Made by a program: the position numbers and the translations under genes. Below, piece after piece: positions 1-44,883 of a DNA stretch of 64,000 nt. This DNA comes from a virus: positions 1 through 64,000 of the IMG/VR virus record IMGVR_UViG_3300032285_002244; one strand, 5' to 3'. How positions within the stretch are numbered: the first letter of the stretch is position 1; each line of letters opens with the position of its first letter. The notes under the pieces were generated by a model, which did no database searches, was not told the origin of the DNA, and saw nothing but the letters and a program-made list of their open reading frames with translations.

Positions 1-60
1 AGTACCATTAGTACCATTAGTACCATTAGTACCATTAGTACCATTAGTACCATTAGTACC
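1..60. repeat. 9-bp tandem repeat inside the fibre gene
   Basis: The unit agtaccatt is repeated six times in perfect tandem and continues in degenerate form to about position 115. On the coding strand it reads as Gly-Thr-Asn triplets. Repeat-length change by slippage would lengthen or shorten the collagen stalk in frame. Confidence 0.9.
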
Positions 61-3051
61 TTGAGTACCGTTAGTACCTGTAGTACCTTGAGTACCGTTA
101 GTACCGTTAGACCCAGCAGTACCTTGAATACCTGTTCCAGTTAATCCTTGAAGTCCCTGTGTGCCTTGTAAACCTGTTAGGCCTTGTGCACCATCAGCTC
201 CATTACTTCCATTAGAACCTGCGGTACCTTGAATACCATTAGACCCAGAAGTTCCTTGAGTACCAAGAGTACCTTGTGTACCCTGAGTTCCAAGAGTTCC
301 TTGAACACCTTGTGTACCGAGAGTACCTTGTGTTCCTTCAGTACCTTGGGCACCTTCAATACCTTGGGTTCCTTCGTAACCTTGAAGACCGTCTGTACCC
401 TGTAACCCAATATCACCTTGTAGCCCTTGAATACCTTGAGAACCAGTAGTTCCTTGTAATCCATTGCCACCAGTTAAACCTTGTGTACCAGTTGTGCCTT
501 GGGCGCCATCGTGTCCTTCAAGACCCTGAAGTCCTTGTTCACCAGTTTCGCCTTGAACACCTTGCAAGCCTTGTGTTCCTTGCAAACCAAGTAGACCTTG
601 TAATCCTTGAATACCTTGTAGTCCCGTTGTACCTTGAGTACCAATTGGGCCTTGTGTTCCAGTAACGCCTTGAATACCAGAGGAAAAAGTAATTAAGTCA
701 ATAGCATCATTATTAGAAAAACCAGTAGTACCAATACCACCAGATGTAACAAACGTAATTGGGAATTTAATGTAACTGTTAGAAACAACAATAACGTTTC
801 CAGTTAGTTTAAACGTTTGGTAATTATTAGAGTCTGCTTTTGATTGAATGATTATTGTATCGTCTTGTTTAACAAGAGCTAATAGAACATCAACGTCTAC
901 ACCCACATCAGTAATGTGATTTACATAAATGTAAGTTGCAGAAGTTTGAGTAGCATTATCCCACTTTAATTTACCAGTTGCTGGTTGAGAATCTGTTTGG
1001 TCAGTGGTGTTGGTTTTGTAGTTGTAGTAACTAGAGGAGCTACCACTAGCACCAGTATTACCTTGAATACCTTGAGAACCAGTGTTCCCTTGAACACCTT
1101 GAACTCCCTGTGTTCCTTGTGTACCCTGCATACCTTGTAAACCTTGAGTACCTTGGGTTCCATCGTTTCCTTGGATACCTTGAATACCTTGGATACCTTG
1201 AGTTCCGTCATGTCCTTGCAGACCAGTTAGACCTTGTGCACCAGTAGTTCCTAAAGTACCTTGGATACCTTGGGAACCTGTTGTACCCTGTAAGCCTGTT
1301 TCACCAATGCTTCCCTGCAAACCTTGGATGCCAGTAAATCCTTGAATACCTTGTGTACCTTGGATTCCCTGGGTGCCTTGTGTACCAGTAGCTCCTTGAG
1401 TACCAGTAGCTCCTTGTAAACCTTCAGTACCTTGTGGTCCTTGAATTCCCTGTAACCCTTGAGTACCTGTAGTACCTTGAGTACCGTTAGTACCTTGGAT
1501 TCCTTGGGTACCCTGCACACCCTGTACTCCTTGAGTACCTTGAGTACCTTGGGCTCCTTGAATGCCTTGAGTACCCTGTGTGCCCTGTGTGCCCTGAACA
1601 CCCTGCGTTCCTTGAGCACCAGTGGTTCCTTGGACTCCTTGAGTACCAACAGCACCTTGAATACCAGTGGTTCCTTGGTTCCCTTGGATTCCCTGTGTGC
1701 CCTGAGCTCCTTGCAAACCTTGAGTACCTTGAATGCCTTGAGTACCCTGTGCTCCTGTAGTTCCTTGAGTTCCAAAGTAACCGCTAGCAGATAGTTCTAC
1801 CCAGGTGTAGTTATTCCCATCATAAATGTATGTGTACTCTGAACCAGAGTTTGAATCAACCCAACGGTCTCCTAAATCAGGAGTGCTTGGTGGTACGGTG
1901 TCATAAGTAACTCTTGGATGAGGTCCTTGTAATCCTTGCAAACCTTGAGTACCTTGGGTGCCTTGTACTCCTTGTACACCTTGAGAACCAGTAGTTCCTT
2001 GTACGCCTTGTACGCCTTGAACTCCTTGAATTCCTTGAGTGCCTTGAACTCCCTGTATACCTTGGGTTCCTTGTACTCCTTGAGTGCCTTGAACTCCCTG
2101 TACTCCTTGAGTGCCTTGAATACCAAAATTTCCTTGAATACCTTGAACACCCTGTGTACCTTGAACTCCTTGAATTCCTTGAACTCCTTGGGTTCCTTGA
2201 ATTCCTTGGGGACCTTGAACACCTTGTGTACCTTGAGCACCTGTATCGCCAATATCTCCATTACGAGCAAAAGTAATGTTAGAAAGAGTTAAGTCAGAAA
2301 AACTGCTTACACTTCCAGAAACAAATGCAACTGGAACTTCATAGTATGAATCATGAAAATAATGATTACCTATAATGCTAAAGTAAACATAATTGTTTAC
2401 GTTGTTTGCGTCGTAAAGTTTAAACGTACCTTTTATAGAAGATGTAGAGTCATCAATTGTCGCTAGAAAAGCAGAGACGTCAGTAGACAAGTTATCTACA
2501 AAACTTATGTATAGCTCAGTTGCAGAAGCAAACCCTGAATTAAACTTTAACTTTCCGTTACCAGGATTACTATCAACTGTGTTTGTTAGGTACACATACT
2601 CAAAGGTTTCTCCGCCAAAATTACCTGTTGGTCCTTGAGTACCTTTTGCACCTTGTACACCTAATACACCCTGAGTTCCTTGTCTACCTTGGACTCCTTG
2701 AGGTCCTTGAATACCTTGGAGTCCTTGAAGTCCCTGAGTTCCTTGTCTACCTTGGACTCCTTGAATACCTTGGGTTCCTTGTACTCCTTGTACTCCTTGA
2801 GTGCCTTGAATACCAAAATTTCCTTGAATACCTTGGGTACCTTGTACTCCCTGGGGACCTTGAATACCTTGAGTACCTTGAATGCCTAAATCACCTTGAA
2901 TACCAGTTGTTCCTTGCAATCCCTGAACACCACGAGCTCCACCTTGACCAGCACCTACAGTTATATTTGTAGGAGTAGTAGCTTGTACAGTGATTGTTTG
3001 GATACTACACGTACAGTTGTATGAAACGTTTCCGCAATTACAACTGGTCAC
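1..3051 (-). CDS. Collagen-like tail fibre / virion protein (C-terminus beyond window)
   Basis: An open frame of 1017 codons runs from a GTG at 3051 to the window edge without a stop. The GTG overlaps the TGA of the upstream gene and has an AGGTGA Shine-Dalgarno. A Cys-rich N-terminus (about residues 1-35) is followed by four Gly-X-Y collagen-like stretches (about 36-141, 268-373, 423-668 and 790-1017), mostly G-(T/I/V)-Q and G-T-N triplets. Between them lie two related globular domains (about 143-268 and 669-790), both carrying a TGKLKW/NGKLKF-type motif followed by S-A-T, and a short GDRWVDS..YTYIYDG..W linker (about 374-423). Collagen triplets in phages form trimeric stalks of fibres or head appendages. 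Its place next to the connector and capsid genes suggests a virion appendage. The exact location on the virion is inference. Confidence 0.9.
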
Positions 3052-4097
3052 ATTGTCACCTCACGAGTGACATAAACTACGCCTCTCATGTAAGTCTTTT
3101 GGTATGTTGGGTCTGAATCAGATGTAGCTTGAATATCCCAGTAACAACGTTCTGGTAGAGCTTCAGTTTGAACTGTTGTTAGAGAAAGAGTTAACTTGGT
3201 GTTATCACCCTCTACTGGTGTTGTAGTAAACGTAGCCAAAAGTGTTGGGCTTGCTTGTTGCATTCTGATTTCTGACTTGAATGTATAACCAGATATGTCG
3301 AATGGGAAGTCCAGTTCAACAGAAAACGAGTCGCCTTGGTACATAGTCAAATCGTATGTAGGAACATCAGATGCTGAAATAGCGCTTCCGTAACTTGGCA
3401 TAGAAAGCTCTGCACGACGTGGCATTGATAGGTCGTCTACTTCCATTGGAAGGTAAACTGGAACATAACGATTTGTAGTCTTGGATATTCTCCGCAACGA
3501 AAAAACATCAATTTTGTAAAGACCAATACCAAGCATTGAACAAAGCTCTTTATATTGTTCTTTTCTAGTTTGAATCATTTCCATCAATTGGCGATAACGT
3601 TCAGAGCGAGGAATAACCACTCCGTCTGGAGCTGTAATATCAATATCAAATGAGGAATCAGTGGCTAGCGTATAAAGCGCCAATGTAGATGCGTAAATAA
3701 CTACTGGGTATTCTTCAATACCAGGCAAAGTCATAAGTGTGTAACCGCGACCATGAGCGTCTGCGTGGTTAGCAATGTGTTGCCCAAAAGCTGTATCAAT
3801 AAACTGGCATATTTCACTATCAATAAAGTATCTGTAATAGGTGCCAGAAAAAGTTAGAGTAACTCCAGCGGTAGGAACGCTATCAGTTGTTACATACCCA
3901 GTTAATTCTTCTACGGTAACAGCAGAAGAGATGTCTGTATCCTCAGCTAGTACCATAAGGGTAGAGCCATTTACTGGGGAATAGGGAAGTAAAAAACGGT
4001 TTGTGGTACCGTCAACTACGACTCGATGGACGAAGGATTTTCCTGTATCGCCAAGTTCAAACCGTAATCTGTCTGCAAGACTGTTGAGTGTTGCCAC
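3048..4097 (-). CDS. Virion protein, connector-like with C-terminal beta domain
   Basis: 349 residues with a GTG start preceded by GGAGG. The gene lies between the capsid/small connector genes and the fibre gene, whose GTG overlaps this stop codon. The first 200 residues are mixed alpha/beta and resemble head-tail connector proteins of phages in general shape. The last 100 residues (from about [17 protein letters not shown]) look like the all-beta modules seen at the N-termini of baseplate and receptor-binding proteins, with QGDSF, a two-strand repeat and a [11 protein letters not shown] ending. A neck or head-tail joining role, possibly anchoring the fibre, is inferred from gene order and not from a specific family match. 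Confidence 0.6.
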
Positions 4098-16220: not shown

Positions 16221-16400
16221 TTATTCTTTTGGGTTGCGCAGTCTAAGCGTAATAATCCACACAATAAAGGACGCTAAAGTTACTTTTCCAATAACGGTTT
16301 TAGCACTTCCTGTTAAGACTAACCATGCGGAAAAAAGACCAACAAAGGTCCAAATTTCGCTAAAGAAGTCTGCTGAGATATCTTTAAAGAATTGTTTCAT
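16221..16400 (-). CDS. 59-residue two-helix membrane protein
   Basis: The frame [15 protein letters not shown]...ends RLRNPKE and has two hydrophobic segments (WTFVGLFSAWLVLTG and VTLASFIVWIITL). The ATG at 16400 overlaps the TAA of the upstream secreted-protein gene (TAATG). Size and topology suit a second holin or an antiholin. It belongs to the same cassette as the two membrane proteins downstream. Confidence 0.75.
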   Translation of the reverse strand: MKQFFKDISADFFSEIWTFVGLFSAWLVLTGSAKTVIGKVTLASFIVWIITLRLRNPKE

Positions 16401-18193
16401 TATTCTCCAAATTTCCTTCTAAACAAAACGCCTCCAACAATTGTTGCTACCAAGATTTTCTTTGCTTTCTGCCTTGTGATAGGGGACATGTCATTACCGA
16501 TATTTTGCAAATCGTTGAATGCAGCTCCAAGTGCTTGGATTGCTACATCTGCGCCAGGTATTGCGTCGAGTGCTGCTGGTAGAAATGTGCATTGTTCTAT
16601 TGGGTGTTGATTCCCGTCCAAATCAACATGCACATCATTACCGTTATCGTCTTTTACCGTTTTACAAACATAAGTCATCGCTACAGGCACGGCAATATCT
16701 GGAGCGTTAAAAGTTGTACCACCTGGTTGTCCAATAAAGGTTTCGGTTGTTGTAATCGCGCCTTCAGGAATTGGTAATCCAGAACCTGGAGGAGGTGGAG
16801 GAGGAGTAAGGTTACCGTCTTCACCTACAACTTGAGGTTGTGATTTAGTTCCAAAGAATTCAATGCCGCCATTTTCAACACCAGCTTTATCTTCTTGAAC
16901 ATGTGGAACAAGAACTTCTTCTGGTGCTTCTTTTGGAATATCAGTTGGAAGTTGGTCTGGGTTGTTTGGTTCTAACCCATCTACAACAGGCTCTGGCTCT
17001 GGAGCTGGTTCAGGAGCAATCTCTGGTTCTGGTGCTAGAGCTGGTGCAGGCTCAGGTTCTGCAATAGGTTCAGGTGCAGGTTCTGGAGCAGGTTCAATAA
17101 CGGGTTCTGGTTCTGGCGCTGGTTCTGGCGCTGGTTCAACAACAGGTTCTGGAGCTGGTTCTGGAACTACGACAGGTTCAGGTGCAGGGTCTGGTATCAC
17201 AATTGGTGTGTCAATAATAACTGGAGGTGTAGGAGGTTGTGGTGGTGGTGTTGGGTCTGGGTGTGTTACAGGACCGCACACGGGTGGACAAACTTGTGGT
17301 ACTAATATTGGGTCTGGTATTACAACTGGTGGTGTAGGTGATGGAATTGGAGTTGGTTCTATTGTTGGTAGCGGTGTTGGTTCTGGCGTTGGTTCTACTG
17401 TTGGTGTCGGTGTCGGTGTTGGAGTTGGTTCGGGTGTTGGCTCTACTGTCGGTGTTGGAGTTGGAGTTGGTTCAGGAGTCGGTTCCACAGTGGGTGTTGG
17501 ACTCGGAGTTGGCTCAACAGGTATCACTGTACCGCCTGCATCAGGAGCTAATGTTGGAGGAGTCTCTACTTGAACAACACCGTACTGCTCTAGAGTAACA
17601 ATTGAACCATCATTTAATCTAACGCCTGTTCTTGTTTGTCCTTCATAAGTAGGACCAGTAACTGAATAAGCGATAGCTACAGTTCCATCCGTGTTAATTG
17701 CGGCAGTAATAGTCACATTTGTTGGGTCAGTTACGTTGTAGTTTCCATAAGGACGAGCAGATAAGTCTACTTGAAAGCCACCATCACTTGAGTTGATAAT
17801 TAAATGTTCATCTGGATGTCTACCAGGAATAATTAACCAATCCATTGAGTATAAAGAAATAGAAGGTGTTCTTGGGTAATCCCAATAAGTGCCATCAGCA
17901 GTTCCAAAAGTAATTACAGAGTTTGTAGTTGCAAAGACACTACTGTAAACAACACCATCAAATAAAACGGTAGTTGTAATTGGGATTTGATAACCAATGT
18001 CATCTCCACCACATGTTTCTAACGTGGTAACTGTTGGTGTTTCACCTGCAGGTGTAGGAGCAGCAGCCGCAGCTGTGGCTGCAGCTTGGGTTTGGTTTAC
18101 GCAAGATGCGTATGCATTGTCTGTAAATAATGTAGGAAATAAAGCGCTGTATAGTAAAACGGATAGTGCTGCGGTTAATCGCAGTTTATTCAA
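16400..18193 (-). CDS. Secreted proline-rich surface protein
   Basis: 597 residues. A clear Sec signal peptide (basic MNKLR, hydrophobic core, cleavage after AYA at about residue 29) is followed by a globular domain of about 190 residues with [31 protein letters not shown] and AYSVTGP, resembling NIDO-like or adhesion-type beta domains. Then come [11 protein letters not shown] repeats (about 230-290), a short Cys segment (CPPVCGP), PAPEPE repeats (about 330-420) and a final domain with [19 protein letters not shown] and a C-terminal hydrophobic-basic end ([18 protein letters not shown]) that may anchor it. Such architecture is that of cell-surface proteins. Superinfection exclusion or a host-acquired adhesin are possible; it is unlikely to be an internal virion protein. 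Confidence 0.8.
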
Positions 18194-20477: not shown

Positions 20478-20646
20478 TTACGAATACGCTTGTATCCAGT
20501 GCGACATTGATTACGAAAAAGAGCGTAGCATCCATGAAGCAGAACCTGAATATTTCTGCGACAAGTGTGGCTACGCTCTTCAACGAGTGTTCTCACCCTT
20601 TGGCCTTCAATTTAAAGGCTCAGGGTTTTATTCAACTGGTAATTAG
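20470..20646 (+). CDS. FmdB-family zinc-ribbon protein
   Basis: A 58-residue frame MPNYEYACIQCDIDYEKE, then EPEYFCDKCGYALQRVFSP and FGLQFKGSGFYSTGN. The start MPxYEYxCxxC, the second CDKCG pair and the ending LQFKGSGFYST are diagnostic of the FmdB/CxxC_CxxC_SSSS zinc-ribbon family. These are small putative regulators of unknown partner. The gene overlaps 19947-20477 by eight bases and is convergent with the minus-strand gene at 20643. Confidence 0.88.
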   Translation: MPNYEYACIQCDIDYEKERSIHEAEPEYFCDKCGYALQRVFSPFGLQFKGSGFYSTGN

Positions 20647-20972
20647 TTGTAGTCTGGGTCGTCTGTTTTAGCTGGAGCTGTCTTTGCAGCTGCATCTGCT
20701 GCTTGACGCTCTTCAACTTTTACATCTGCGACTGTCTTTGCACCCTTATCAACTGTAGCAAATGCTGCGTTGATTTCATCAAGGGTAAGCTTTCCATCGT
20801 CCATAAACGCACGGGCTAGCTTTTCAATTACGGCTGCTACTGCTGTAAGTCCAGCAACAAGCATTGCTTTAGCGACTGAGATACCAGCAACTGCACCAGC
20901 ACCAATTACGCCAAGACCGCTTGCTGCAAACACTGCAACAATACGCATTAATACGTTATTTAAACTCTTCAT
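20643..20972 (-). CDS. Two-helix membrane protein, holin-like
   Basis: 109 residues from the ATG at 20972; GAGGA five bases upstream favours it over the ATG at 20984. Two hydrophobic segments (IVAVFAASGLGVIGAGAVAG and AKAMLVAGLTAVAAVI) are followed by ARAFMDDGKLTLDEINAAF, an EF-hand-like D-x-G-K-L-T-x-x-E-I sequence, and an Ala/Lys-rich tail. This arrangement is common in actinophage holin-like proteins. A role in lysis with the endolysin at 22695 is inferred. Confidence 0.7.
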   Translation of the reverse strand: MKSLNNVLMRIVAVFAASGLGVIGAGAVAGISVAKAMLVAGLTAVAAVIEKLARAFMDDGKLTLDEINAAFATVDKGAKTVADVKVEERQAADAAAKTAPAKTDDPDYN

Positions 20973-21013
20973 TAGATTCCTCATTGATGTCCTTTGCGGT
21001 CTTATGCACGATG

Positions 21014-21475
21014 TCAGTTAACTTTTTTTGCGTCTATTCCCTCACTACGGAACATTCTAACATTCTTCTTCTTATCATCATAGGCTTTCTTGATATCAAA
21101 GTTAGGTAAAACCTCATTTTTTAAAAGGTCTTTCTTAACGACCTTATCTTTACGGTCGTCATCTATTGGGCGCATAAATAGGCTGTCGTAGGGTATTCCG
21201 TGTTCATGTAACCAAGTCTTGGTGTCTTTGCGGTAATGAGCAGAACGGGCAGTAAGGATTACTACATCTCGTCCTTTTGATTTTGCTTTACGAACTTTTT
21301 CCACCATTTTTGGGACAGCGTCAGCGCCAGCAGCATGACTACGAAAGCCTTCATGATTCTTTTTATGATTTGCATTTGGGTCATTTGTATCCGCCAAGGT
21401 TCCATCTAAATCAAAAAGTACAGCTTTGTTACTTCTTTTGTTTTTGCCAGTCTCAAAGGTGTTGTTCTTACTCAT
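21014..21475 (-). CDS. HAD phosphatase, polynucleotide 3'-phosphatase-like
   Basis: 153 residues. HAD motif I AVLFDLDGTLAD (about 18-29) with both Asp, motif II VVILTARSAH, a conserved Lys region (DKVVKKDLL) and motif IV YDDKKKNVRMFRSEGI. The arrangement resembles the phosphatase domain of T4 polynucleotide kinase (Pnkp/PseT), which removes 3' phosphates from nucleic acid ends, but no kinase domain is present. The ATG overlaps the stop of the ParB-like gene upstream (ATGA). Confidence 0.85.
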   Translation of the reverse strand: MSKNNTFETGKNKRSNKAVLFDLDGTLADTNDPNANHKKNHEGFRSHAAGADAVPKMVEKVRKAKSKGRDVVILTARSAHYRKDTKTWLHEHGIPYDSLFMRPIDDDRKDKVVKKDLLKNEVLPNFDIKKAYDDKKKNVRMFRSEGIDAKKVN

Positions 21476-21795
21476 TCCTCAATTATGACGTTATTTTCAG
21501 GATTCGTCTCTAGAACCGATGGGTCAACTCCACGGACTATAAGAGTTGTTAACGGAGTGTTAGATTGGACAACAGCATTAAGACGGTGCTGACCGTTAAG
21601 AAGACGACCATTGGAATCAAATATGAGTGCTTTTCCGTTGAGTTTCCATTTGCCATCTTGCATCTCCTTTATGTACTCGTCTACTTTCTTTTGCTTTACC
21701 TTACGGTGCATAGCATTGTTCTTAAGATATGCCTCTGCTTCTGAGGGATTAACTACCTCAATTGATACTTCTAAACCAAACTCATTTGGATTCAT
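21472..21795 (-). CDS. ParB-like nuclease-domain protein
   Basis: 107 residues. KQKKVDEYIKEMQDGKWKL, then ALIFDSNGRLLNGQHRLNA shows the N-G-Q-H-R-L box of ParB/sulfiredoxin-like domains, preceded by the helix that in ParB proteins holds the parS-independent CTP-site region. Phage proteins of this length consist of this domain alone. They are annotated as ParB-like nucleases, though the chemistry is rarely tested. It is flanked by overlapping genes. Confidence 0.85.
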   Translation of the reverse strand: MNPNEFGLEVSIEVVNPSEAEAYLKNNAMHRKVKQKKVDEYIKEMQDGKWKLNGKALIFDSNGRLLNGQHRLNAVVQSNTPLTTLIVRGVDPSVLETNPENNVIIEE

Positions 21796-22054
21796 TTACT
21801 TTTTCCATTCGTTTTAAATACTCGTCTTTTTTGCTCATTAAGAACTCTTCAATATCTTTTTGGCGGTCTTTCATAGACTGCTGTAATTGCGCCCAATGTT
21901 CAGTCTTCTCAAGTTCTTCTTGATGTTCTTCTATCTCAGCAACGGCTATATCAAGCATCTGTTGCATAAGAGCAGCTTTCATCTGTGCTTCATTCCAAAG
22001 CGTCTCTGCGTGCTCAGTAATTCGTTCTTGTTTCTTATCCTGTGTCTTACTCAT
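21782..22054 (-). CDS. Coiled-coil protein
   Basis: 90 residues, nearly all helical and highly charged (EIEEHQEELEKTEHWAQL; MKDRQKDIEEFLMSKKDEYL). Heptad spacing of Leu and Met suggests a coiled coil. It overlaps the ParB-like gene by 14 bases. Unknown role; may be a partner of one of the adjacent enzymes. Confidence 0.65.
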   Translation of the reverse strand: MSKTQDKKQERITEHAETLWNEAQMKAALMQQMLDIAVAEIEEHQEELEKTEHWAQLQQSMKDRQKDIEEFLMSKKDEYLKRMEKVNESK

Positions 22055-22070
22055 GCCCCCACCTTATCAG

Positions 22071-22619
22071 TTACTTATATTGCTCCATAATCAGGATTGG
22101 CCCTGAACTATTAACATCTACTTTACATGCATGTTCTACAGCTTCTTCTGGGGTAGCTCCTGCAAGTAACGCCCCCATAGCGTAGGGAGAACCAGAGCCT
22201 ACCCCATAAATTCCAAGTTCAGAACGACAAACTGACAAATCGTCAGCAACGTCAAAGAGTTCGCCACCTACTGCAATAAGGAAATTAAATCTAGTGTCAT
22301 CTGCTTTTCCATCGCCCTTACCTTCGTTAAAGTCATAACCATTATCAGTTAAACATTTACGCAGAGAAGCCATAACTTTAACAATCATAAACTTATAAAG
22401 GTCTGCTCTATCTTTTGCAGTTAACTTTGGTGGTTGCCAAATCTGTTGCACAACATCACATGGTTGTACTTCGCCACTTCCTGCAATTAAAAACTCACCA
22501 CGTTCTGCAATCTTTTTCATGTCGGGATGGTTGTAACGGCGTCCGCTATCACCAGTTACCTGATTGTCAGCAGCTATTACACACTTATCCTCGTATTGAA
22601 CCCCAACGATTGTAGTCAT
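22071..22619 (-). CDS. Proteasome/HslV-like Ntn hydrolase
   Basis: 182 residues, close to HslV length. MTTIVGVQYEDKCVIAADNQVTG aligns with the N-terminus of HslV and proteasome beta subunits: Thr2 would be the nucleophile after Met removal, Asp18 corresponds to catalytic Asp17, and KK at 35-36 to Lys33. Later GVGSGSPYAMGALLAG and EEAVEHACKVDVNSSGPI match the S-G/G-S-G-x-x-A and final helix-strand motifs. No unfoldase such as HslU or ARC is seen in the window, so it might use a host partner or act alone. Neighbours are endolysin and HAD phosphatase. Family assignment is strong; substrate unknown. Confidence 0.88.
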   Translation of the reverse strand: MTTIVGVQYEDKCVIAADNQVTGDSGRRYNHPDMKKIAERGEFLIAGSGEVQPCDVVQQIWQPPKLTAKDRADLYKFMIVKVMASLRKCLTDNGYDFNEGKGDGKADDTRFNFLIAVGGELFDVADDLSVCRSELGIYGVGSGSPYAMGALLAGATPEEAVEHACKVDVNSSGPILIMEQYK

Positions 22620-22638: not shown

Positions 22639-22676
22639 AACCCCCCTAGAATACCAGATGGTTTCCTAGAGGGGTT
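22639..22676 (-). terminator. Terminator after endolysin
   Basis: AACCCCCCTAG (22639-22649) pairs with CTAGAGGGGTT (22666-22676), eleven positions with one mismatch. On the minus strand it is followed by CTTCTTTGG. It lies 19 bp after the endolysin stop and before the Ntn hydrolase gene. Confidence 0.7.
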
Positions 22677-22694: not shown

Positions 22695-23441
22695 TTATAG
22701 GAGTTTGACCAGCTCCGCCCAAGTCTTAGGCCCAATGATTCCATTGGAGTCTACGATATCGTGGTTATCTTGGAAAGCAATTACTGCCTTCTTTGTAGCT
22801 GGACCATAGTCCCCATCTTCAACTAGGGTTAAAGCGTGCTGTACGAGCTTTACAGCCTCTCCCTGGTCTCCTGGTGTAATTCGACCTGGGAACTCTGGTG
22901 TGGAGCTTACAGGGACGTCTGACTCGACTTCATTGCCTTTGTAATTAGGGCGTCCAAAGCCTTCGATGAATACTGGAATACCCTTTGGGTTCTTCTTGTA
23001 CGCACGAATCTTCTTAACGCATTCTCCACCATTGGCTTGTGAACCTGACTTTTTCTTATCTCCTGCAGTATTACCTTCTACAGTAGTTACTGTACCATCG
23101 CCATTATCTTTGATAACAATACCAACGTGCTCAATTGGAGCGCCACCTGCCATAAAGTCAAAGTAAACAATGTCTCCTGGTTCTGGCTTTGCCTTAGCAG
23201 CATCTGTCCATGTGCCCATCTTCTTAAATGAAGCAGCACCTGCCATAGTTGCAACGGTGTTAGGAATCTTAACTCCTGCTTCATTTGCTACCCACATGCA
23301 GAAAGAACCGCACCATGGAAGGAAATTAGCCTTAGTAAATTTACCGTACTTGGTTTCGTTGTCCTTTGGACCCTCTACATAACCAACTTCTGCGAGAGCA
23401 ACTTCTACCATCTTTGCTGCTGTACCTTTTGCTGCTGCCAT
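22695..23441 (-). CDS. Endolysin: CHAP amidase/peptidase with peptidoglycan-binding domain
   Basis: 248 residues. The CHAP domain (about 8-170) has NFLPWCGSFCMWVANEAG with catalytic Cys44, PIEHVGIVI with His105 and TVEGNT with the third residue (Glu122). A linker (VESDVPVSSTPEFPGRI) leads to a PG_binding_1 domain (about 187-248; LVQHALTLVEDGDYGPATKK, GIIGPKTWAELVKLL). CHAP enzymes cut peptide or amide bonds of peptidoglycan at lysis. The start overlaps the upstream TAA. Membrane proteins of the lysis set lie 2-7 kb away. Confidence 0.93.
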   Translation of the reverse strand: MAAAKGTAAKMVEVALAEVGYVEGPKDNETKYGKFTKANFLPWCGSFCMWVANEAGVKIPNTVATMAGAASFKKMGTWTDAAKAKPEPGDIVYFDFMAGGAPIEHVGIVIKDNGDGTVTTVEGNTAGDKKKSGSQANGGECVKKIRAYKKNPKGIPVFIEGFGRPNYKGNEVESDVPVSSTPEFPGRITPGDQGEAVKLVQHALTLVEDGDYGPATKKAVIAFQDNHDIVDSNGIIGPKTWAELVKLL

Positions 23442-23629: not shown

Positions 23630-23925
23630 TATTTTTTCTTCTTTCTATGTTGGTTACCTTTACCAATATTTTTTGAAGCATCCATAACTTGTAAGTTCTT
23701 AGAGCTTTCATTCTTTTTGTTATTGTCTTTATGGTCAACGTGTTTGCTTTTTGGCAACTTATGACCTAATTCTTTTTCTTTCTTATTACGAGCTGCGTTT
23801 TGGCTGCCCATCTTTCCTGTTTCAGAGTTATAGACAACTACAGTCTTACGTCCACCATTTTGTTTAGACCCCTTGTAAGGGCCATAAACTTTGGTACCAG
23901 AGACTTTCTCATTTTTCTTAGTCAT
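23629..23925 (-). CDS. Small HNH-type protein
   Basis: 98 residues from the ATG at 23925, which overlaps the TAA upstream; an in-frame TTG upstream is less likely. LPKSKHVDHKDNNKKNESSKNLQVM fits the H-x-D-H...N...N-L-x-x-L/M core of HNH nucleases (read here in two blocks: LPKSKHVDHKDNNK and ESSKNLQVMDASKN). The N-terminus (VYGPYKGSKQNGGRKTV) resembles the DNA-contact region of such proteins. Very basic. Could be a small homing-type nuclease. Confidence 0.75.
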   Translation of the reverse strand: MTKKNEKVSGTKVYGPYKGSKQNGGRKTVVVYNSETGKMGSQNAARNKKEKELGHKLPKSKHVDHKDNNKKNESSKNLQVMDASKNIGKGNQHRKKKK

Positions 23926-24521
23926 TAGTGTTGTTGCCAATCTATAGCCATGAACTGCTTAGGGTTAATGTTTCTCATTGCTGCCAAACGGTGGTGTCCT
24001 TCGTACACGTTCATACTACGAAGAGTTACTGGACGATTATTGGTTCCAAGTTTATAAAGAGCTGCTGTACTTTCAAGAAGTGGAAATGAACCTTTAAATC
24101 CTTCTTTTGAAATGTTCTCGTGTAAAGAGGGTAGAGATGAACTGCGTACTTCTTCTCCGTTATGTATTGCCCAACCAGATTGGTGTTCTTTACGAGTATG
24201 ACTGTTTCTAAGTGTTCCAGTCTTACTTTCTTTTAACTTTCTTGCCATAACGTACTTTTCTTTGTTTACTTGGCTCTGTGGTTTCTCATCGCCTATGTAA
24301 TTTTGATTGTACATTCCAGCATCAGCTAAATTTGCGTGTTTAACTACCTCACCTGCAGTCATAAACATAGGACGATTGCCCTCTACTAACTCTTGTTTAA
24401 GACCCTTTTTCTTTGCAGGCTTTTCTTTTGCAACCTCTGTTTCAGGTTTAGCGGGTTTTTGTCTTAATTTCTTAACACTAGCGCTACTAAAGCCAGGAAG
24501 TGAGGGTTGAATAGCTCCCAT
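23925..24521 (-). CDS. ParB-like protein of the MFMT family (paralogue A)
   Basis: 198 residues. An MFMTAGEVVKHA segment at about 52-63 is shared with 25617-25988 and 44431-44883. It is followed by a KLKESKTGTLRNS box and, at the end, MNVYEGHHRLAAMRNINPK, the ParB-like G-H-H-R-x-A motif. The N-terminal 45 residues are Lys/Pro-rich. ParB-like domains use CTP or act as nucleases in other systems; here the His-His-Arg variant suggests a specialised group. The role is unknown. Confidence 0.75.
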   Translation of the reverse strand: MGAIQPSLPGFSSASVKKLRQKPAKPETEVAKEKPAKKKGLKQELVEGNRPMFMTAGEVVKHANLADAGMYNQNYIGDEKPQSQVNKEKYVMARKLKESKTGTLRNSHTRKEHQSGWAIHNGEEVRSSSLPSLHENISKEGFKGSFPLLESTAALYKLGTNNRPVTLRSMNVYEGHHRLAAMRNINPKQFMAIDWQQH

Positions 24522-25465: not shown

Positions 25466-25617
25466 GCTTTGCTACCACTTGCTGTTGTGTTGAAGTCAGC
25501 TATCCCTGTCTTTTCGACATCGGAACGTTCTTTAGCCATCTGCTCTGTGAACTGAGTGCTAGATGCGTATGGGCTTATACCGTATAGAGTCCAACCGAAT
25601 TGGTCTTGTTTGCTCAT
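25462..25617 (-). CDS. 51-residue hypothetical protein
   Basis: MSKQDQFGWTLYGISPYA, then SSTQFTEQMAKERSDVEK and TGIADFNTTASGSKA. ATG at 25617 overlaps the upstream TAA (TAATG) and the TGA overlaps the downstream ATG (ATGA), so it fits exactly between two genes. No family recognised. Confidence 0.7.
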   Translation of the reverse strand: MSKQDQFGWTLYGISPYASSTQFTEQMAKERSDVEKTGIADFNTTASGSKA

Positions 25618-25988
25618 TAGTAATCACTGTGTTCTACTGGGATTAGCATTTTTGGGTCAATGTCGTAAGCTGCTGCCACTCTATGGTGACCCTCTGATAG
25701 AGAGTAACCTTTTTTACTAAATTTTGTATTTTTGGTATTACGTTGTAACTCTACAGGTTTCTGTACGCCCTTTTCTTTTACTGATTCATAAAGAGAATTG
25801 CCTTTGCGCTTGCGAGTAGGAACGTATCTAGCGTTACGTACTGCTCCAGTTTTTGACTCATAAAGTTTTTGATGCCATAGGCCTTCCATATCATGCCCAC
25901 CTGGGTCAGCAGAAGAGTTAACTTTGCTCTTTATCTCTTCAGCGGTCATGAACATAGCTAATTGCTCATGTGATAGTGGATTACTCAT
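25617..25988 (-). CDS. ParB-like protein of the MFMT family (paralogue B)
   Basis: 123 residues: LAMFMTAEEIKSKVN near the start, KLYESKTGAVRNARYVP in the middle, SLYESVKEKGVQKPVEL and the ParB-like YSLSEGHHRVAAAYDIDP at the end. Same order of blocks as 23925-24521 and 44431-44883 but without their extensions. ATGA overlap with the GNAT gene upstream. Role unknown. Confidence 0.75.
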   Translation of the reverse strand: MSNPLSHEQLAMFMTAEEIKSKVNSSADPGGHDMEGLWHQKLYESKTGAVRNARYVPTRKRKGNSLYESVKEKGVQKPVELQRNTKNTKFSKKGYSLSEGHHRVAAAYDIDPKMLIPVEHSDY

Positions 25989-29346: not shown

Positions 29347-30663
29347 ATGTCTTACTCAATACTAATTAGCGCAACAACAAACAACGCAGATGTAATACAG
29401 CAACACTTGTTAATCGAACACAATGGTAAGAAAACTATTTGGTCAAGGGAAACCAATGGTGGTCGTGGTGAAGTTAATGCGTGGTCATTACAGGATTACG
29501 CAGATATAACAACACGCAATAGTGCGAACTTTATTATCGGTGAAGTTCTTTCCTCTCCACTAACCGAAGTTGATATTGACGCAGTAGAAAATAATTACAA
29601 GCCAAATGTTTTGATACAAAAACTTTCAAAACAATATGGACTACGCCATAAAGAAGTTAGCACTCAAACACTAGGAGAAGTAATGACAGAAGTTACGGCA
29701 CTAATTGATAGCGACTCACAACAACTAGAGAAGTATCGGTCAGACGGCAGAAGCGACAAACAAGCCACCACCCCGAAAAAATCTGACCCACAAGTTGTTG
29801 AACCAATTATAGAAATCGTAAGACAACAACCAATAACAACTTCACAAGAAGTTATTGGTAATTATGTAATTCATATTCCAACAAAAGATGAAGTTGGAAA
29901 TTATATTCCGCGAGTATTTGACGGAATAACAGAAAAGAAGTTTTGGGATTACGCAATCAATCACAAAGCCAATGTTCTTTTAGAAGGCGGTGCTGGCACA
30001 GGTAAAACTTCTAGCCCGTTACACGATAGTTATTTGCGACAACAAGGTTGTGTGTTAGTCGGTTGTTCAGTAGGACTTGAAGTAAGTCATCTACTTGGCA
30101 AAGTTGTTATTGACCCAACAAGTGGAAAACCAACTTGGGTTGATGGCGTATTAACACAAGCGATGAAAAATGGAGACAGAATTATTTTTGATGAAGTGGA
30201 TTTTGCGCACCCTAAAGTGTTACAACGAATTCAAGATGTAGCACAAAATCGCAAACTAACACTTATTGAAAATGGTGGTGAAGTTGTTGTAGCACACCCA
30301 CACTTCTCTTTAGTCGCTACTTACAATAACGGCTATCGTCATAGCAACAAATTAAACGAAGCGTTCTTAGATAGATTTACAAAGGTTCGCTTTGATTACG
30401 ACAACGATATTGAAAAGCAGATTATTAAATCAACAACACTTCTACAACTCGCAAACCAAATGAGAGCAGACAGTATTAGTGGTTTATATTCGACACCAAT
30501 ATCACTTCGTATTCTCAATCGCTTTCAACAACAAGCACAAGAACTTAACTTCGAGTTCGCTTCAACTTCTTTTGTAATGAACTTTACAGATGAGGAACGC
30601 TCAAGTGTGAAACTTCTTTTGGAAGCACACCGCACACAACTTGAACAAGAACTATCAAACTAA
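29347..30663 (+). CDS. MoxR/CobS-like AAA+ ATPase
   Basis: 438 residues. The N-terminal 110 residues form a separate small domain with ETNGGRGEVNAWSLQDYADI, unlike CobS or MoxR. After a linker the AAA+ core starts: Walker A LLEGGAGTGKTS (about 211-222), Walker B DRIIFDEVDFA (277-287), sensor-1 LVATYNN and arginine-finger region NEAFLDRFTKVRF. This is the AAA_5/MoxR group, which includes CobS (cobaltochelatase) and GvpN, and works with VWA proteins. The gene next downstream encodes a VWA protein, as in CobS-CobT and MoxR-VWA pairs. Chelatase, chaperone or peptidase-loading roles all remain possible. Confidence 0.88.
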   Translation: MSYSILISATTNNADVIQQHLLIEHNGKKTIWSRETNGGRGEVNAWSLQDYADITTRNSANFIIGEVLSSPLTEVDIDAVENNYKPNVLIQKLSKQYGLRHKEVSTQTLGEVMTEVTALIDSDSQQLEKYRSDGRSDKQATTPKKSDPQVVEPIIEIVRQQPITTSQEVIGNYVIHIPTKDEVGNYIPRVFDGITEKKFWDYAINHKANVLLEGGAGTGKTSSPLHDSYLRQQGCVLVGCSVGLEVSHLLGKVVIDPTSGKPTWVDGVLTQAMKNGDRIIFDEVDFAHPKVLQRIQDVAQNRKLTLIENGGEVVVAHPHFSLVATYNNGYRHSNKLNEAFLDRFTKVRFDYDNDIEKQIIKSTTLLQLANQMRADSISGLYSTPISLRILNRFQQQAQELNFEFASTSFVMNFTDEERSSVKLLLEAHRTQLEQELSN

Positions 30664-30698: not shown

Positions 30699-32618
30699 AT
30701 GTTTTTACAAGAGCAAACAGATGAACGACAAAAAGCACTAGCAATTAAACACAATCGCGTAACAAAGTTAGCAAGCATATTTGCGAGAGCAAATAGTGTG
30801 CTGACAGGAAAACGAATTGCGGTTAATGTTGTAAATCAAGAACACCAAAAATCTCCTGCTTGGTCAAGCACAAATGAACTCTGGTTGAACCTTGCGGAGA
30901 TTAAAGATGATTTAACTGCTCAAAGTATTTTGTCTTATCAAGGCTTAAATTTCCACGAACTTAGTCATATCAAGTTTTCACCCCGTAATGGAAGCGAACT
31001 TGTTAAGTGGGTTAAGGAAAACAATTTATGGCAAGCGTTTAATTGTTTAGAGGACAACCGAATTGAAAACCTTATGGTTGCCTATCTACCAACAGTTTCA
31101 AATTGGCTGACCGCAACAATTACTGATTACTTGATGTGTAATGATGAAGCAATTAAAACTGCTTATCCACTTGTTACAGGTCGCAGATACTTACCAATCG
31201 AAATGCGCAATCTAGCAAAAGATAATTATGCTAGACCGCAAGATGTTGATGAGTTGTATTCAATCGTTGATGAATATATAGGTTTAATTTTTGAAGGCAA
31301 TCCTTCTGCTACCGAACAAGCAAAACCACTTCTTACACGCTTTAACGAATTGTTAGAGCAACTTCCACCAATACCAAATCCAAATGGTGGAGAAGGTGGA
31401 GAAGGTGGCACAACAGTTATCTATCGTGTTCATAATCCTAATGGTCATAATCACCGACCAACAGAAGGATACGAAAGCAGTAGCAATCGCCCTGCTGGTA
31501 AATCTCAACAAGAACAATTTAGAGATAAGTCAAAAGCGAAAGATACTTCTAAAGAAAAAGTAATTGTTATAGATGTTCGTAACGATACAAAAGAAGGTAG
31601 CGATACTTCTGCTGGCGAGTCAAAAGAACAATCACTAAATCAATCAAGTGGAAATGATTTTAGTGATTTTAATTTTGATGAGCAATCTCCTAGTGATTTA
31701 GAAGGTGGAGAGTCTGCTGGTAATCAAGAAGGAACAACAGGAGATAATCAACAAGTAACCGAAACTCTTGACGGCATTATGAAAGATATTGTTAAAGAAC
31801 TTTCAAAAGACATTAACCAAATTGCGAAGCAACTAGGAATTAGTGTTGATTTAGAAGGTGGCAATATCGAAACACCTACTCGCGCACACTACAAAGATGT
31901 AACCGCTAATCCTGAATTGGTGCTTATATCTAAAGCGTTTGGAAAAGAGTTAGAGCGTTTGCGTTCTAACTACGAACCTTATTGGGAAACAGAAGTGGAT
32001 AATGGTCGCTTAAATGTTACTCGGTATCTTGACGGCAACGACTTCGATACAGTTTTTGATGAGTGGCAAGAAGGCAAAGATGATGTTACTTCTATTGAAG
32101 CAGTTATTCTTTTAGATAAAAGTGGCTCAATGAGTGGAGAAAATTCTGACAATGCTTACAAGTCAATGTGGGCTATCAAGAAGGCACTTGAACAAGTAGA
32201 AGCACGAACAACAGTTTGTTTGTTCGATAGCAGAACAACACTTCTTTATAGTGCTGATGAAAGAGCAGGAAGCACTATTAGAGATAGTGGTGCTAGTGGT
32301 GGCACTAATCCTTGCGACAGTTTGTTATACGCAAAGAAGGTCTTAGCAGATACAGATAAGAAAATTCGTATCTTGTTTATGATTACTGACGGCGCGTGGG
32401 AAACAGAAGCAGGAGAAAAAGCCATTACTGAAATGCGCAACGCTGGTGTTCTTACTTGCCAAGCGTATTTAGATAGTGGAGAAGCAAGGAAAGAATACCT
32501 AGAGAAATTGCGCCATAGTTTTGAGTTACTAACTCATATCAAATCCGCAAAAGATATTGCGATACTTGGTAAAGAGTTAGTTCGGTTAGCAATCGCTCGC
32601 AATCTAATCAATCACTAA
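30699..32618 (+). CDS. HExxH metallopeptidase-like protein with C-terminal VWA domain
   Basis: 639 residues. QGLNFHELSHIKFSPR (about 81-96) has HExxH, and NCLEDNRIENLM (about 115-126) could give the third zinc ligand. A low-complexity acidic middle (about 200-360; PNPNGGEGGEGGTTV, SDLEGGESAGNQEG) follows. The VWA domain has an intact MIDAS: DKSGSMSGE (about 473), SGGTNP and ITDGAW. N-terminal metallopeptidase plus VWA resembles DUF2201-type proteins, and CobT also has an acidic linker before its VWA domain. It must be judged with the AAA+ partner upstream. Activity as peptidase, chelatase subunit or remodelling adaptor is undecided. Confidence 0.85.
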   Translation: MFLQEQTDERQKALAIKHNRVTKLASIFARANSVLTGKRIAVNVVNQEHQKSPAWSSTNELWLNLAEIKDDLTAQSILSYQGLNFHELSHIKFSPRNGSELVKWVKENNLWQAFNCLEDNRIENLMVAYLPTVSNWLTATITDYLMCNDEAIKTAYPLVTGRRYLPIEMRNLAKDNYARPQDVDELYSIVDEYIGLIFEGNPSATEQAKPLLTRFNELLEQLPPIPNPNGGEGGEGGTTVIYRVHNPNGHNHRPTEGYESSSNRPAGKSQQEQFRDKSKAKDTSKEKVIVIDVRNDTKEGSDTSAGESKEQSLNQSSGNDFSDFNFDEQSPSDLEGGESAGNQEGTTGDNQQVTETLDGIMKDIVKELSKDINQIAKQLGISVDLEGGNIETPTRAHYKDVTANPELVLISKAFGKELERLRSNYEPYWETEVDNGRLNVTRYLDGNDFDTVFDEWQEGKDDVTSIEAVILLDKSGSMSGENSDNAYKSMWAIKKALEQVEARTTVCLFDSRTTLLYSADERAGSTIRDSGASGGTNPCDSLLYAKKVLADTDKKIRILFMITDGAWETEAGEKAITEMRNAGVLTCQAYLDSGEARKEYLEKLRHSFELLTHIKSAKDIAILGKELVRLAIARNLINH

Positions 32619-42429: not shown

Positions 42430-43935
42430 TTATTCCTCTATAGAGGATTGAATAATCTTAGTAACCGTATCTTCTTTTAGGGTTTCAGGAAGTTCTTTCA
42501 AAGCTTGAGCTCTGTCTCCAAAGATAGCAGAAAGGACTCCACCTGAAGATTGCCTCTGAGCTGTAATCTGAATGAACTCTTTGTCTGAGTTCATATCGTT
42601 AACTTCTTTAACCATTTTGATAAGGCGGTCAACTTCTTGAGACACGTTAGGGTCTGCATAACCACCATTCATTTCTTCAGCAAAACGCATAAAAGCAACT
42701 CTTTGGCCCTGCATTTCAATCATTGAAACCATAAGAGCCTTCAGTTGGTCTTTAGTTTTTACTTCAATTGGAAGATTAAAAGCACACGTATTTTGAGGTT
42801 TGAATGCGGGACAGTTCGCAGCTACAAAGCATGTATCACATTGTCTTAAAGAAGATTGTTGGGTGTGAACAACGGGTACATCTTTGAGTACGTCCTTTCC
42901 GTTGTCATCTGTATCTACTATGGTCTTCATCTTGTAACCAAAAACAGGTAAGTTTTGTACCTCTGAAGGGTCTCTTTGGACTAGTTCAGTGGGCTCATTT
43001 TTCCGTATCTCGACCTCACTGTTATCAGAAAGGTACCCCCCTAATTCCCCTAAACCTGATAGTAATGGGGTATCGCTGTTATCAGATACTTTGGGTTCTT
43101 TACCACCGTTGATGATGTGAAAGTTAGGGCTTTTCTTGTCCATAGATTCCTCTAATCGCTTGTATGACCAGACCGCTACCCTAGTTGCTTCTAGGGTACT
43201 ATCTTGGCTAAACGCCAAATAGTCTAGTCCTGCTTTTTCCACTACGGACTTGTAGCGGGGTCTTGCTTGGTCTTTCATTCTCTTAGGGTAACGCTTTATT
43301 TGCGACCCATCCCAAACGATTGTCTCTCCTCTACGCATAGGGGATAACCACGACAATGTGCTTGCAGTGGCAAATGGTATCTGTCTAAGGTTGTCAGGCT
43401 TGGCACATCCAAGAGCGTGGTAACGGGTTCCGTATTGTCTCTCATAGGCTCTTGTAAGGGCTGAGAGGTTGGTTAGAGCCTCTATCTCGGCGTTGGGTAT
43501 AACGACGTTCTGATGGGCTTCAGACATGGCTTTGAGGGCGGGTAACCCGTACTCTTGATGCCAGACTACCCACAGTTTAGGGTCGTTACTGAAAAAAGGT
43601 CTTTGTTCTTTTATCCAGTCTTCGCCCAAAATTTGAGAGTCAAACTCTAGAAAGGCTGAAGCTCGTTCAGCGTTGTCTACAAGAAACTCTTGGTAATCAG
43701 CGGCTAAAGAAGTTAACTCTTCTTTAGACAGTCCAGCCTTGTCTGCCTGCTGTGCTCCAGACTCTATGACGACTAAAGTGTCTGAGTCAAAATGGTCAGA
43801 GATTAGCCACTTCTTTGTTTTGGGCAATCCACGTTTACGGAGGCCCCAATAATTGAGTCCCATTGACTCAACTTTCATGCCTTCTAGAAGGGTGCGGTTA
43901 GACCCTACTTCAACACCGCTAAATATGATGCGCAT
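42430..43935 (-). CDS. TGT/DpdA-like TIM-barrel protein with C-terminal cysteine cluster
   Basis: 501 residues. The N-terminal 250 residues have a TIM-barrel pattern: VVIESGAQQ, AFLEFDSQILG, LWVVWHQEYGLPALKAM, VVIPNAEIE, RYHALGCAKPDNLRQIPF and ATASTLSWLSPMRRG, an order seen in phage queuine-transglycosylase-like (DpdA-type) proteins. A linker (about 285-350) leads to QCDTCFVAANCPAFKPQNTC, a four-Cys cluster, and helices with QGQRVAFMRFAEEMNGGY. DpdA inserts 7-deazaguanine in DNA; no preQ pathway genes are in the window, so DNA modification is a hypothesis. N- and C-terminal parts may be separate modules. Confidence 0.6.
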   Translation of the reverse strand: MRIIFSGVEVGSNRTLLEGMKVESMGLNYWGLRKRGLPKTKKWLISDHFDSDTLVVIESGAQQADKAGLSKEELTSLAADYQEFLVDNAERASAFLEFDSQILGEDWIKEQRPFFSNDPKLWVVWHQEYGLPALKAMSEAHQNVVIPNAEIEALTNLSALTRAYERQYGTRYHALGCAKPDNLRQIPFATASTLSWLSPMRRGETIVWDGSQIKRYPKRMKDQARPRYKSVVEKAGLDYLAFSQDSTLEATRVAVWSYKRLEESMDKKSPNFHIINGGKEPKVSDNSDTPLLSGLGELGGYLSDNSEVEIRKNEPTELVQRDPSEVQNLPVFGYKMKTIVDTDDNGKDVLKDVPVVHTQQSSLRQCDTCFVAANCPAFKPQNTCAFNLPIEVKTKDQLKALMVSMIEMQGQRVAFMRFAEEMNGGYADPNVSQEVDRLIKMVKEVNDMNSDKEFIQITAQRQSSGGVLSAIFGDRAQALKELPETLKEDTVTKIIQSSIEE

Positions 43936-44430: not shown

Positions 44431-44883
44431 TTAATAATGGTCTTTTAGTTGATGCCTTGCTTCGTGTATGTTGTCGTAATGTACTATTGGAAAAAGATGG
44501 TTAGGGTGTTCTTCTGCTCCAACTGCAACTCTGTGATGACCACCTAAAACTTCTTTAGATTCAAAATTTACAGGTATACGTGGTGCTTTAAACCCTTCAT
44601 GGGCAATGTCTTCAGCTAAATTGCTGTACTTATCATCGTGAATAGCTCCATCGTCTTCATGGTGAGTAATTGACTCATTGTATTTCCTAGACCACATTTC
44701 TTTGTCAGTTTCTGGACGTCGTTTTTTTCCTCCCCATTCTTCTGGGTCAGGTTCATTTGTACTGACTCTTTGACGGTCGTTATCAAAGGGTTTTAAATGT
44801 GCCTGTATTTCTTTACCTGTCATAAACATAGGTATTTGACCAGCAGCAATGTGCTGAGATAGAGACATGTTGCGTGCGCTCAT
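44431..44883 (-). CDS. ParB-like protein of the MFMT family (paralogue C)
   Basis: 150 residues. IPMFMTGKEIQAHL near residue 18 is followed by KMWSRKYNESITHHEDDG-type sequence (a KYNES block), LAEDIAHEGFKAPRIPVNF and the ParB-like VLGGHHRVAVGAEEHPNHLF. Same block order as 23925 and 25617 genes though 20 kb away. ATGA overlap with the nucleotidyltransferase gene upstream. Confidence 0.75.
   Translation of the reverse strand: MSARNMSLSQHIAAGQIPMFMTGKEIQAHLKPFDNDRQRVSTNEPDPEEWGGKKRRPETDKEMWSRKYNESITHHEDDGAIHDDKYSNLAEDIAHEGFKAPRIPVNFESKEVLGGHHRVAVGAEEHPNHLFPIVHYDNIHEARHQLKDHY

Follow-up and report, generated by a model that had tools for sequence, protein, structure and literature searches.

The window analyzed here comprises 64,000 nucleotides, positions 1 to 64,000 of an IMG/VR virus record (IMGVR_UViG_3300032285_002244) whose source assembly of 70,776 bases (70.8 kb) is viral and not a bacterial genome. 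On the minus strand of this window, positions 22071-22619 encode a 182-amino acid proteasome-like threonine peptidase that begins with an ATG (first residues MTTIVGVQYEDK) and is preceded by a Shine-Dalgarno-like GGAAGGAG. A profile search matched residues 1-178 of this protein to PHROG 1040, "peptidase HslV family" (E=1.1e-29), and it scored 26.2 bits against the Pfam Proteasome family (PF00227), for which the cut-off is 22.4. We found at least 405 relatives of the peptidase in IMG/VR, and dN/dS ranged from 0.03 to 0.09 in nine usable pairwise comparisons, in several of which dS was near-saturated. A further pair (L044/L057, dN/dS of 0.46) was excluded because a length difference had caused it to be misaligned, and another yielded no dS. 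The low ratios indicate that the protein is maintained and, as judged from these sequence comparisons, the reading frame is a genuine gene under strong purifying selection. Since the record encodes a WhiB-like gene and a major capsid protein that is 60-63% identical to those of Streptomyces phages such as BRock, LuckySocke, and GiJojo, the host of this phage is probably a freshwater actinobacterium.

The original prediction was that Thr2, Asp18, and a pair of lysines at residues 35 and 36 correspond to catalytic positions in HslV and in the beta subunits of the proteasome. Thr2, Asp18, Lys36, Gly47, and Ser142 were invariant in an alignment of 31 diverse relatives. In a larger alignment of 93 homologues, which also includes sequences from other phages, bacterial proteins encoded on plasmids, and HslV of E. 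coli, Thr2 was present in 92 sequences, with the single exception being a gap that arises from the annotated start, and Asp18 was present in all 93, so both of these assignments were borne out. Gly141 and Gly143 were also found in 93/93 homologues and Ser142 in 87/93. In contrast, only half of the lysine pair held up: while Lys36 was nearly universal (92/93), Lys35 was present in 72/93 homologues and in merely 4 of the 19 proteins outside the clade to which the window peptidase belongs. Because Lys35 varies, Lys36 alone is the equivalent of the catalytic Lys33. Thr2, Asp18, and Lys36 thus occupy the positions of Thr1, Asp17, and Lys33 in proteasome-like Ntn hydrolases. Gly47 lies in an "IAG" motif resembling that of the proteasome oxyanion glycine; the motif holds within the clade, but its column shifts in distant homologues. 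No propeptide is present in the reading frame, with Thr2 directly following Met1. A methionine in this position before threonine is normally removed by methionine aminopeptidase, which exposes the threonine.

An AlphaFold2 model of the peptidase, generated with the 31-sequence alignment, had a mean pLDDT of 91.4 and a pTM of 0.88 and was poor only around residues 101-110. When this model was compared to the PDB, the top match was BPH (Z 18.6, rmsd 2.8, 164 residues), followed by HslV (Z 17.2) and then proteasome beta subunits (Z about 17), and a Foldseek comparison agreed with this ranking. The predicted fold is accordingly proteasome beta-like. BPH was also the best solved relative by sequence profile (E=3.8e-8), and 41 predicted viral proteins matched the model at E<=0.001, some of which are named HslV-like or proteasome beta. 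Upon superposition, Thr2 of the model falls on Thr1 of BPH and HslV. Since the PDB matches listed were all BPH, HslV, or proteasome, there was no sign that the protein is a different Ntn hydrolase, such as an amidase. The helices required for ring formation, H1 through H4, were all predicted (H1 and H2 at residues 51-60 and 74-92), as was a pore loop of ~18 residues that carries on average 4.7 acidic and 3.0 basic residues over 73 members. Taken together, the matches to PHROG 1040 and PF00227, the predicted fold, and the intact Thr-Asp-Lys site uphold the identification of a phage-encoded proteasome/HslV-like peptidase. The protein nevertheless falls outside of both curated families, scoring 20.6 bits against the HslV model TIGR03692 (cut-off 157.75) and 17.2 bits against the bacterial 20S beta (PrcB) model TIGR03690 (cut-off 191.9).

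The gene directly upstream of the peptidase (22695-23441, minus strand) encodes an endolysin with a CHAP/NlpC-like domain and a peptidoglycan-binding domain, and a terminator-like RNA hairpin with a 13-bp outer stem lies between the two genes (22639-22676, minus strand). This hairpin recurs in about two dozen relatives, in which the sequence of the stem varies while its pairing is apparently kept. On the other side, 16 nt past the peptidase stop codon, starts a gene that we call g90 (21782-22054, minus strand), which encodes a charged, 90-amino acid protein with a predicted helical hairpin structure and no family match in profile searches. The end of g90 is overlapped by the gene for a PHROG 5931 protein of unknown function (21472-21795, minus strand), which is followed by a conserved neighbor encoding a polynucleotide kinase-type HAD phosphatase (21014-21475, minus strand) and by a gene for a small hydrophobic protein (20643-20984, minus strand) that is holin-like by appearance only, its family, PHROG 26427, being labelled "nuclease". 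Most related contigs have the order endolysin, peptidase, and g90, often followed by PNKP-like HAD, holin-like, and zinc-ribbon proteins.

Whereas a single-sequence search gave 4 g90 loci, the profile search that was used instead led to 80 loci being kept. The peptidase gene was found upstream of g90, at distances of up to about 3 kb, in 78 of these, and the two remaining contigs end 630 bases upstream of g90, so that the genes are linked at 78/78 testable loci. The spacing in most relatives is similar to the 16 nt in the window. All 12 clade records tested carry g90, and it was not found in DSL-LC01, BRock, D'Alembert, or OX376640. In three relatives (L050, L058, and L061), the peptidase and g90 genes are about 1.2 kb apart, with an Hsp20-like gene located between them in L061 (10641-11141; PHROG 432, E=4.9e-39) and L050 (2845-3342). 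Because all of the g90-bearing phages form one clade, however, these neighboring genes may be linked by shared descent alone.

Several other features of the window were recorded. A long reading frame that runs off the start of the window (1-3060, minus strand) contains collagen-like G-x-y repeats and probably encodes a tail-fibre protein, and a 597-amino acid protein (16400-18193, minus strand) has a signal peptide-like start and long repeats rich in proline, threonine, and glutamate; homologues of the latter are present in several relatives, and it has no family match. Three diverged paralogues that are 25-27% identical (23925-24521, 25617-25988, and 44431-44883, minus strand) share "MFMT" and ParB-like GHHR motifs, while a queuine tRNA-ribosyltransferase-like protein (42430-43935, minus strand; PHROG 887) is possibly a DNA 7-deazaguanine transglycosylase.

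The peptidase was originally described as having no visible unfoldase, which is correct with respect to HslU- or ClpX-type proteins in the record. No match to PF00004 was found in the peptidase's own record, and no match to PF07724 (AAA_2) exceeded the cut-off in 12 clade records (its own and 11 relatives, which are possibly incomplete). Among 13 other peptidase-bearing phages, a true AAA_2 protein was found in Salicola phage SCTP-2 alone. By eye, the 6.8 kb of the record beyond the window contain a DnaC-like loader and replication and tail genes. What the description overlooked is a MoxR/CobS-type AAA+ ATPase (29347-30663, plus strand), a candidate chaperone partner, which is encoded next to its vWA partner protein (30699-32618, plus strand), the N-terminus of which contains an HExxH motif (HELSH at residue 86). 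These two genes are 7-10 kb from the peptidase gene and on the opposite strand.

In a maximum-likelihood tree, the window peptidase fell within a 16-row freshwater clade (support 95/98) that stands beside OX376640, L072, and L074 (joint support 82/92). Within a separate 9-row group (100/98), the homologues from rhizobial and Streptomyces plasmids fell together with proteins of Moorella and Psychrobacter phages, and the proteins of phAPEC8 and of Klebsiella and Aeromonas phages were placed in another group. Since many of the branches are long, the deep order of the tree is uncertain; on sequence grounds, the window clade may be placed in group I of the proteasome-like proteins, with AAH, CPH, or an undescribed branch all being candidates. 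Proteasome-like proteins are common in phages, with 119 public phage records matching the peptidase. Across 84,980 species genomes, single-sequence and profile scans, which are sensitive to close relatives only, gave no relative, and a bacterial origin was rejected on this basis. The plasmid homologues are distant, at 25-30% identity. On the symbiotic plasmid of Sinorhizobium fredii, a related proteasome-like gene (L212, 3001-3546) is situated between nifQ and iron-sulfur/nifS genes.

The gene context of the peptidase differs between lineages. In the window, the gene is beside the endolysin gene, with the capsid genes about 14 kb away, while in many other carriers it is found among nucleotide-metabolism genes. 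In L070, L071, L072, L074, and OX376640, whose portal proteins are about 80-85% identical, it immediately follows the portal gene and precedes small genes and then, where the contig reaches, genes for very large proteins. In this second actinophage lineage, the portal and peptidase genes span 2582-4929 in L070 and 5698-8036 in L210. The OX376640 genome is 39 kb long and encodes an N4-gp56-type capsid protein. Although the portals of L070 and OX376640 are about 80% identical, the peptidases of these two phages are only 41% identical, and the L070 peptidase groups with that of the endolysin-type L065 (94/99). Since the portals are alike and the peptidases have diverged, these sequences suggest that the peptidase gene has been replaced between phage lineages. 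The endolysin and portal contexts may correspond to two different roles.

We propose, with a probability of about 0.5, that the peptidase acts late in infection, probably as a ring, and that it trims or clears proteins of virion assembly or misfolded proteins. Host methionine aminopeptidase would remove Met1 to expose Thr2 as the nucleophile, which Lys36 and Asp18 would activate. The subunits would assemble into a closed double ring, and the long pore loop would admit unfolded proteins or flexible protein ends without HslU. With less certainty, the enzyme would work late in infection and could process scaffold, internal proteins, and aggregates, with g90 serving as an assembly factor, gate, or adaptor and Hsp20 as a holdase in some phages. 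Support for a late role comes from the late-type context with the endolysin and, in the sister lineage, with the portal, and the portal-adjacent relatives favor a role in assembly. Support for the ring comes from the presence of H1 through H4, and the pore loop, at ~18 residues, is elongated as in BPH, which has no known unfoldase. A more specific version, in which the peptidase and g90 form a two-component proteolytic machine for quality control of assembly proteins, with g90 replacing the ATPase as adaptor or gate and Hsp20 delivering clients in some phages, strikes us as rather doubtful; if true, this machine would act in abundant freshwater actinophages.

A dedicated prohead maturation protease, which would cut specific sites in the scaffold, portal, or major capsid protein, would fit the portal-adjacent slot, since this is the usual place for maturation proteases, and the head genes scanned in OX376640 include no other recognized protease. 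We nonetheless regard this explanation as unlikely because the gene has no constant place in a head module, being portal-adjacent only in the other lineage, far from the capsid genes in the window clade, and among nucleotide-metabolism genes in many other carriers. Moreover, Streptomyces phage BRock has a homologous major capsid protein, scaffold, portal, and terminase without a peptidase gene. The peptidase is therefore not needed for that capsid type, and head maturation as a requirement in the window clade was rejected. Late trimming or clearance is preferred over a required capsid protease for the same reason. The peptidase could alternatively be one half of an ATP-dependent protease in which the MoxR/CobS-type ATPase and the vWA protein unfold substrates and feed them into it. 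The MoxR gene is present in 9/9 clade records that are 53 kb or longer and in two further peptidase carriers, the actinophages DSL-LC01 and Pumpernickel, and BRock lacks both MoxR and the peptidase. The MoxR-vWA pair is a candidate partner. However, the vWA protein carries its own HExxH motif, as do the MoxR/metallopeptidase-vWA pairs of jumbo phages that have been proposed to act in virion assembly (PMC7824862), and the MoxR and peptidase genes are 7 kb apart on opposite strands in the window. MoxR matched 560 records versus 119 for the peptidase, largely from different hosts and with the genes mostly apart, and most other peptidase carriers had a weak MoxR match or none. The MoxR gene is constant in the clade, which shared descent explains equally well, but a partnership is unsupported outside of the clade, so it was not adopted, and we consider it distinctly improbable.

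The patchy distribution of the peptidase across many unrelated phages could point to a protease for host take-over or anti-defence, perhaps one that works through the host proteasome or against it, and patchy phage peptidases have been argued to possibly target host proteins (PMC7824862). The strong purifying selection, as opposed to arms-race change, and the stable late-type neighborhood with the endolysin make this role improbable, and no evidence for anti-defence was found, which is why late trimming or clearance is preferred. Nor did we find support for the earlier suggestion that the protein joins or replaces the host's own proteasome, since it is not PrcB-like: its similarity to PrcB is at the superfamily level only (17 bits versus a cut-off of 191.9 for 20S beta), and its nearest solved relative, BPH, forms its own homo-oligomer. 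Finally, the protein could be proteasome-like without being proteolytic, namely a connectase-like ligase or another Ntn amide hydrolase. A survey of proteasome-like proteins in 2021 cautioned that "proteasome-like" need not imply proteolytic, connectase being a ligase (PMC8665760), and BPH is inert on standard peptides and casein, its active site having been demonstrated through epoxomicin binding (PMC5777263), such that proteolysis by the phage peptidase cannot be assumed. Connectase, however, lacks both H1 and H2 (PMC8665760), which are predicted here, and the PDB matches listed were all to proteasome, HslV, or BPH; we therefore judge a non-proteolytic enzyme to be highly improbable. The late, probably ring-forming peptidase of the trimming or clearance type remains our preferred explanation.

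Peptidases of this kind, including those without an unfoldase and those in actinophages, are already on record. The 2021 survey found AAH to be common in phages and identified no AAA+ partner or informative gene context (PMC8665760), HslV-like ORFs without HslU were reported in 2020 for the Salmonella jumbo phage pSal-SNUABM-04 (PMC7823757), and an HslV-like gene is annotated in the sequence record of actinophage DSL-LC01 from Dishui Lake; the main text of the corresponding paper never uses the words protease, HslV, or proteasome (PMC10611076). In the literature searched, no substrate, partner, or tested role was found for phage proteasome-like proteins. The linkage to g90, the Hsp20 neighbor in a subclade, and the divergent portal-adjacent relatives appear to be unreported, and they provide handles on the role of proteasome relatives that have no unfoldase. 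The window branch would also place an AAH-related peptidase in actinophages, where the 2021 survey found that no Actinobacteria-specific phage carries AAH (PMC8665760).

Among known systems, the named members of PHROG 1040 (from Escherichia phage phAPEC8, Caulobacter phage CcrBL9, and Moorella phage MTATph1, among others) share a full-length profile match and the same active-site residues with the window peptidase, although most are just 24-31% identical to it, and the phAPEC8-type proteins differ in having C-terminal extensions and no segment between H1 and the S5-S9 sheet. AAH and PPH resemble the window peptidase in belonging to group I of the proteasome-like proteins, being found in phages, having Thr1 without a propeptide, and having no known AAA+ partner (PMC8665760). 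Membership in PPH, which Fuchs, Alva, and Lupas described in 2021 as "the first true viral member" (PMC8665760), was rejected because PPH is about 140 amino acids long and lacks helix H2, whereas the window protein has 182 amino acids and H2. The plasmid homologues from rhizobia and Streptomyces, whose taxonomy fits AAH and none of which carries that label, belong to a clade separate from the window peptidase. The pSal-SNUABM-04 ORFs, which we compare by description, likewise have no HslU but come from a phage of another type and host. HslV and PrcB share the fold and active site of the window peptidase, whose scores are far under their curated cut-offs. Of the relatives with a solved structure, the best by both fold and profile is BPH (5OVS, 5OVT, and 5OVU), which assembles its own homo-oligomeric double ring, has no known unfoldase (PMC5777263), and has a similarly elongated pore loop; it differs in being about 23-26% identical, chromosomal rather than viral, and equipped with a highly acidic pore loop, in contrast with the mildly acidic loop of the phage peptidase.
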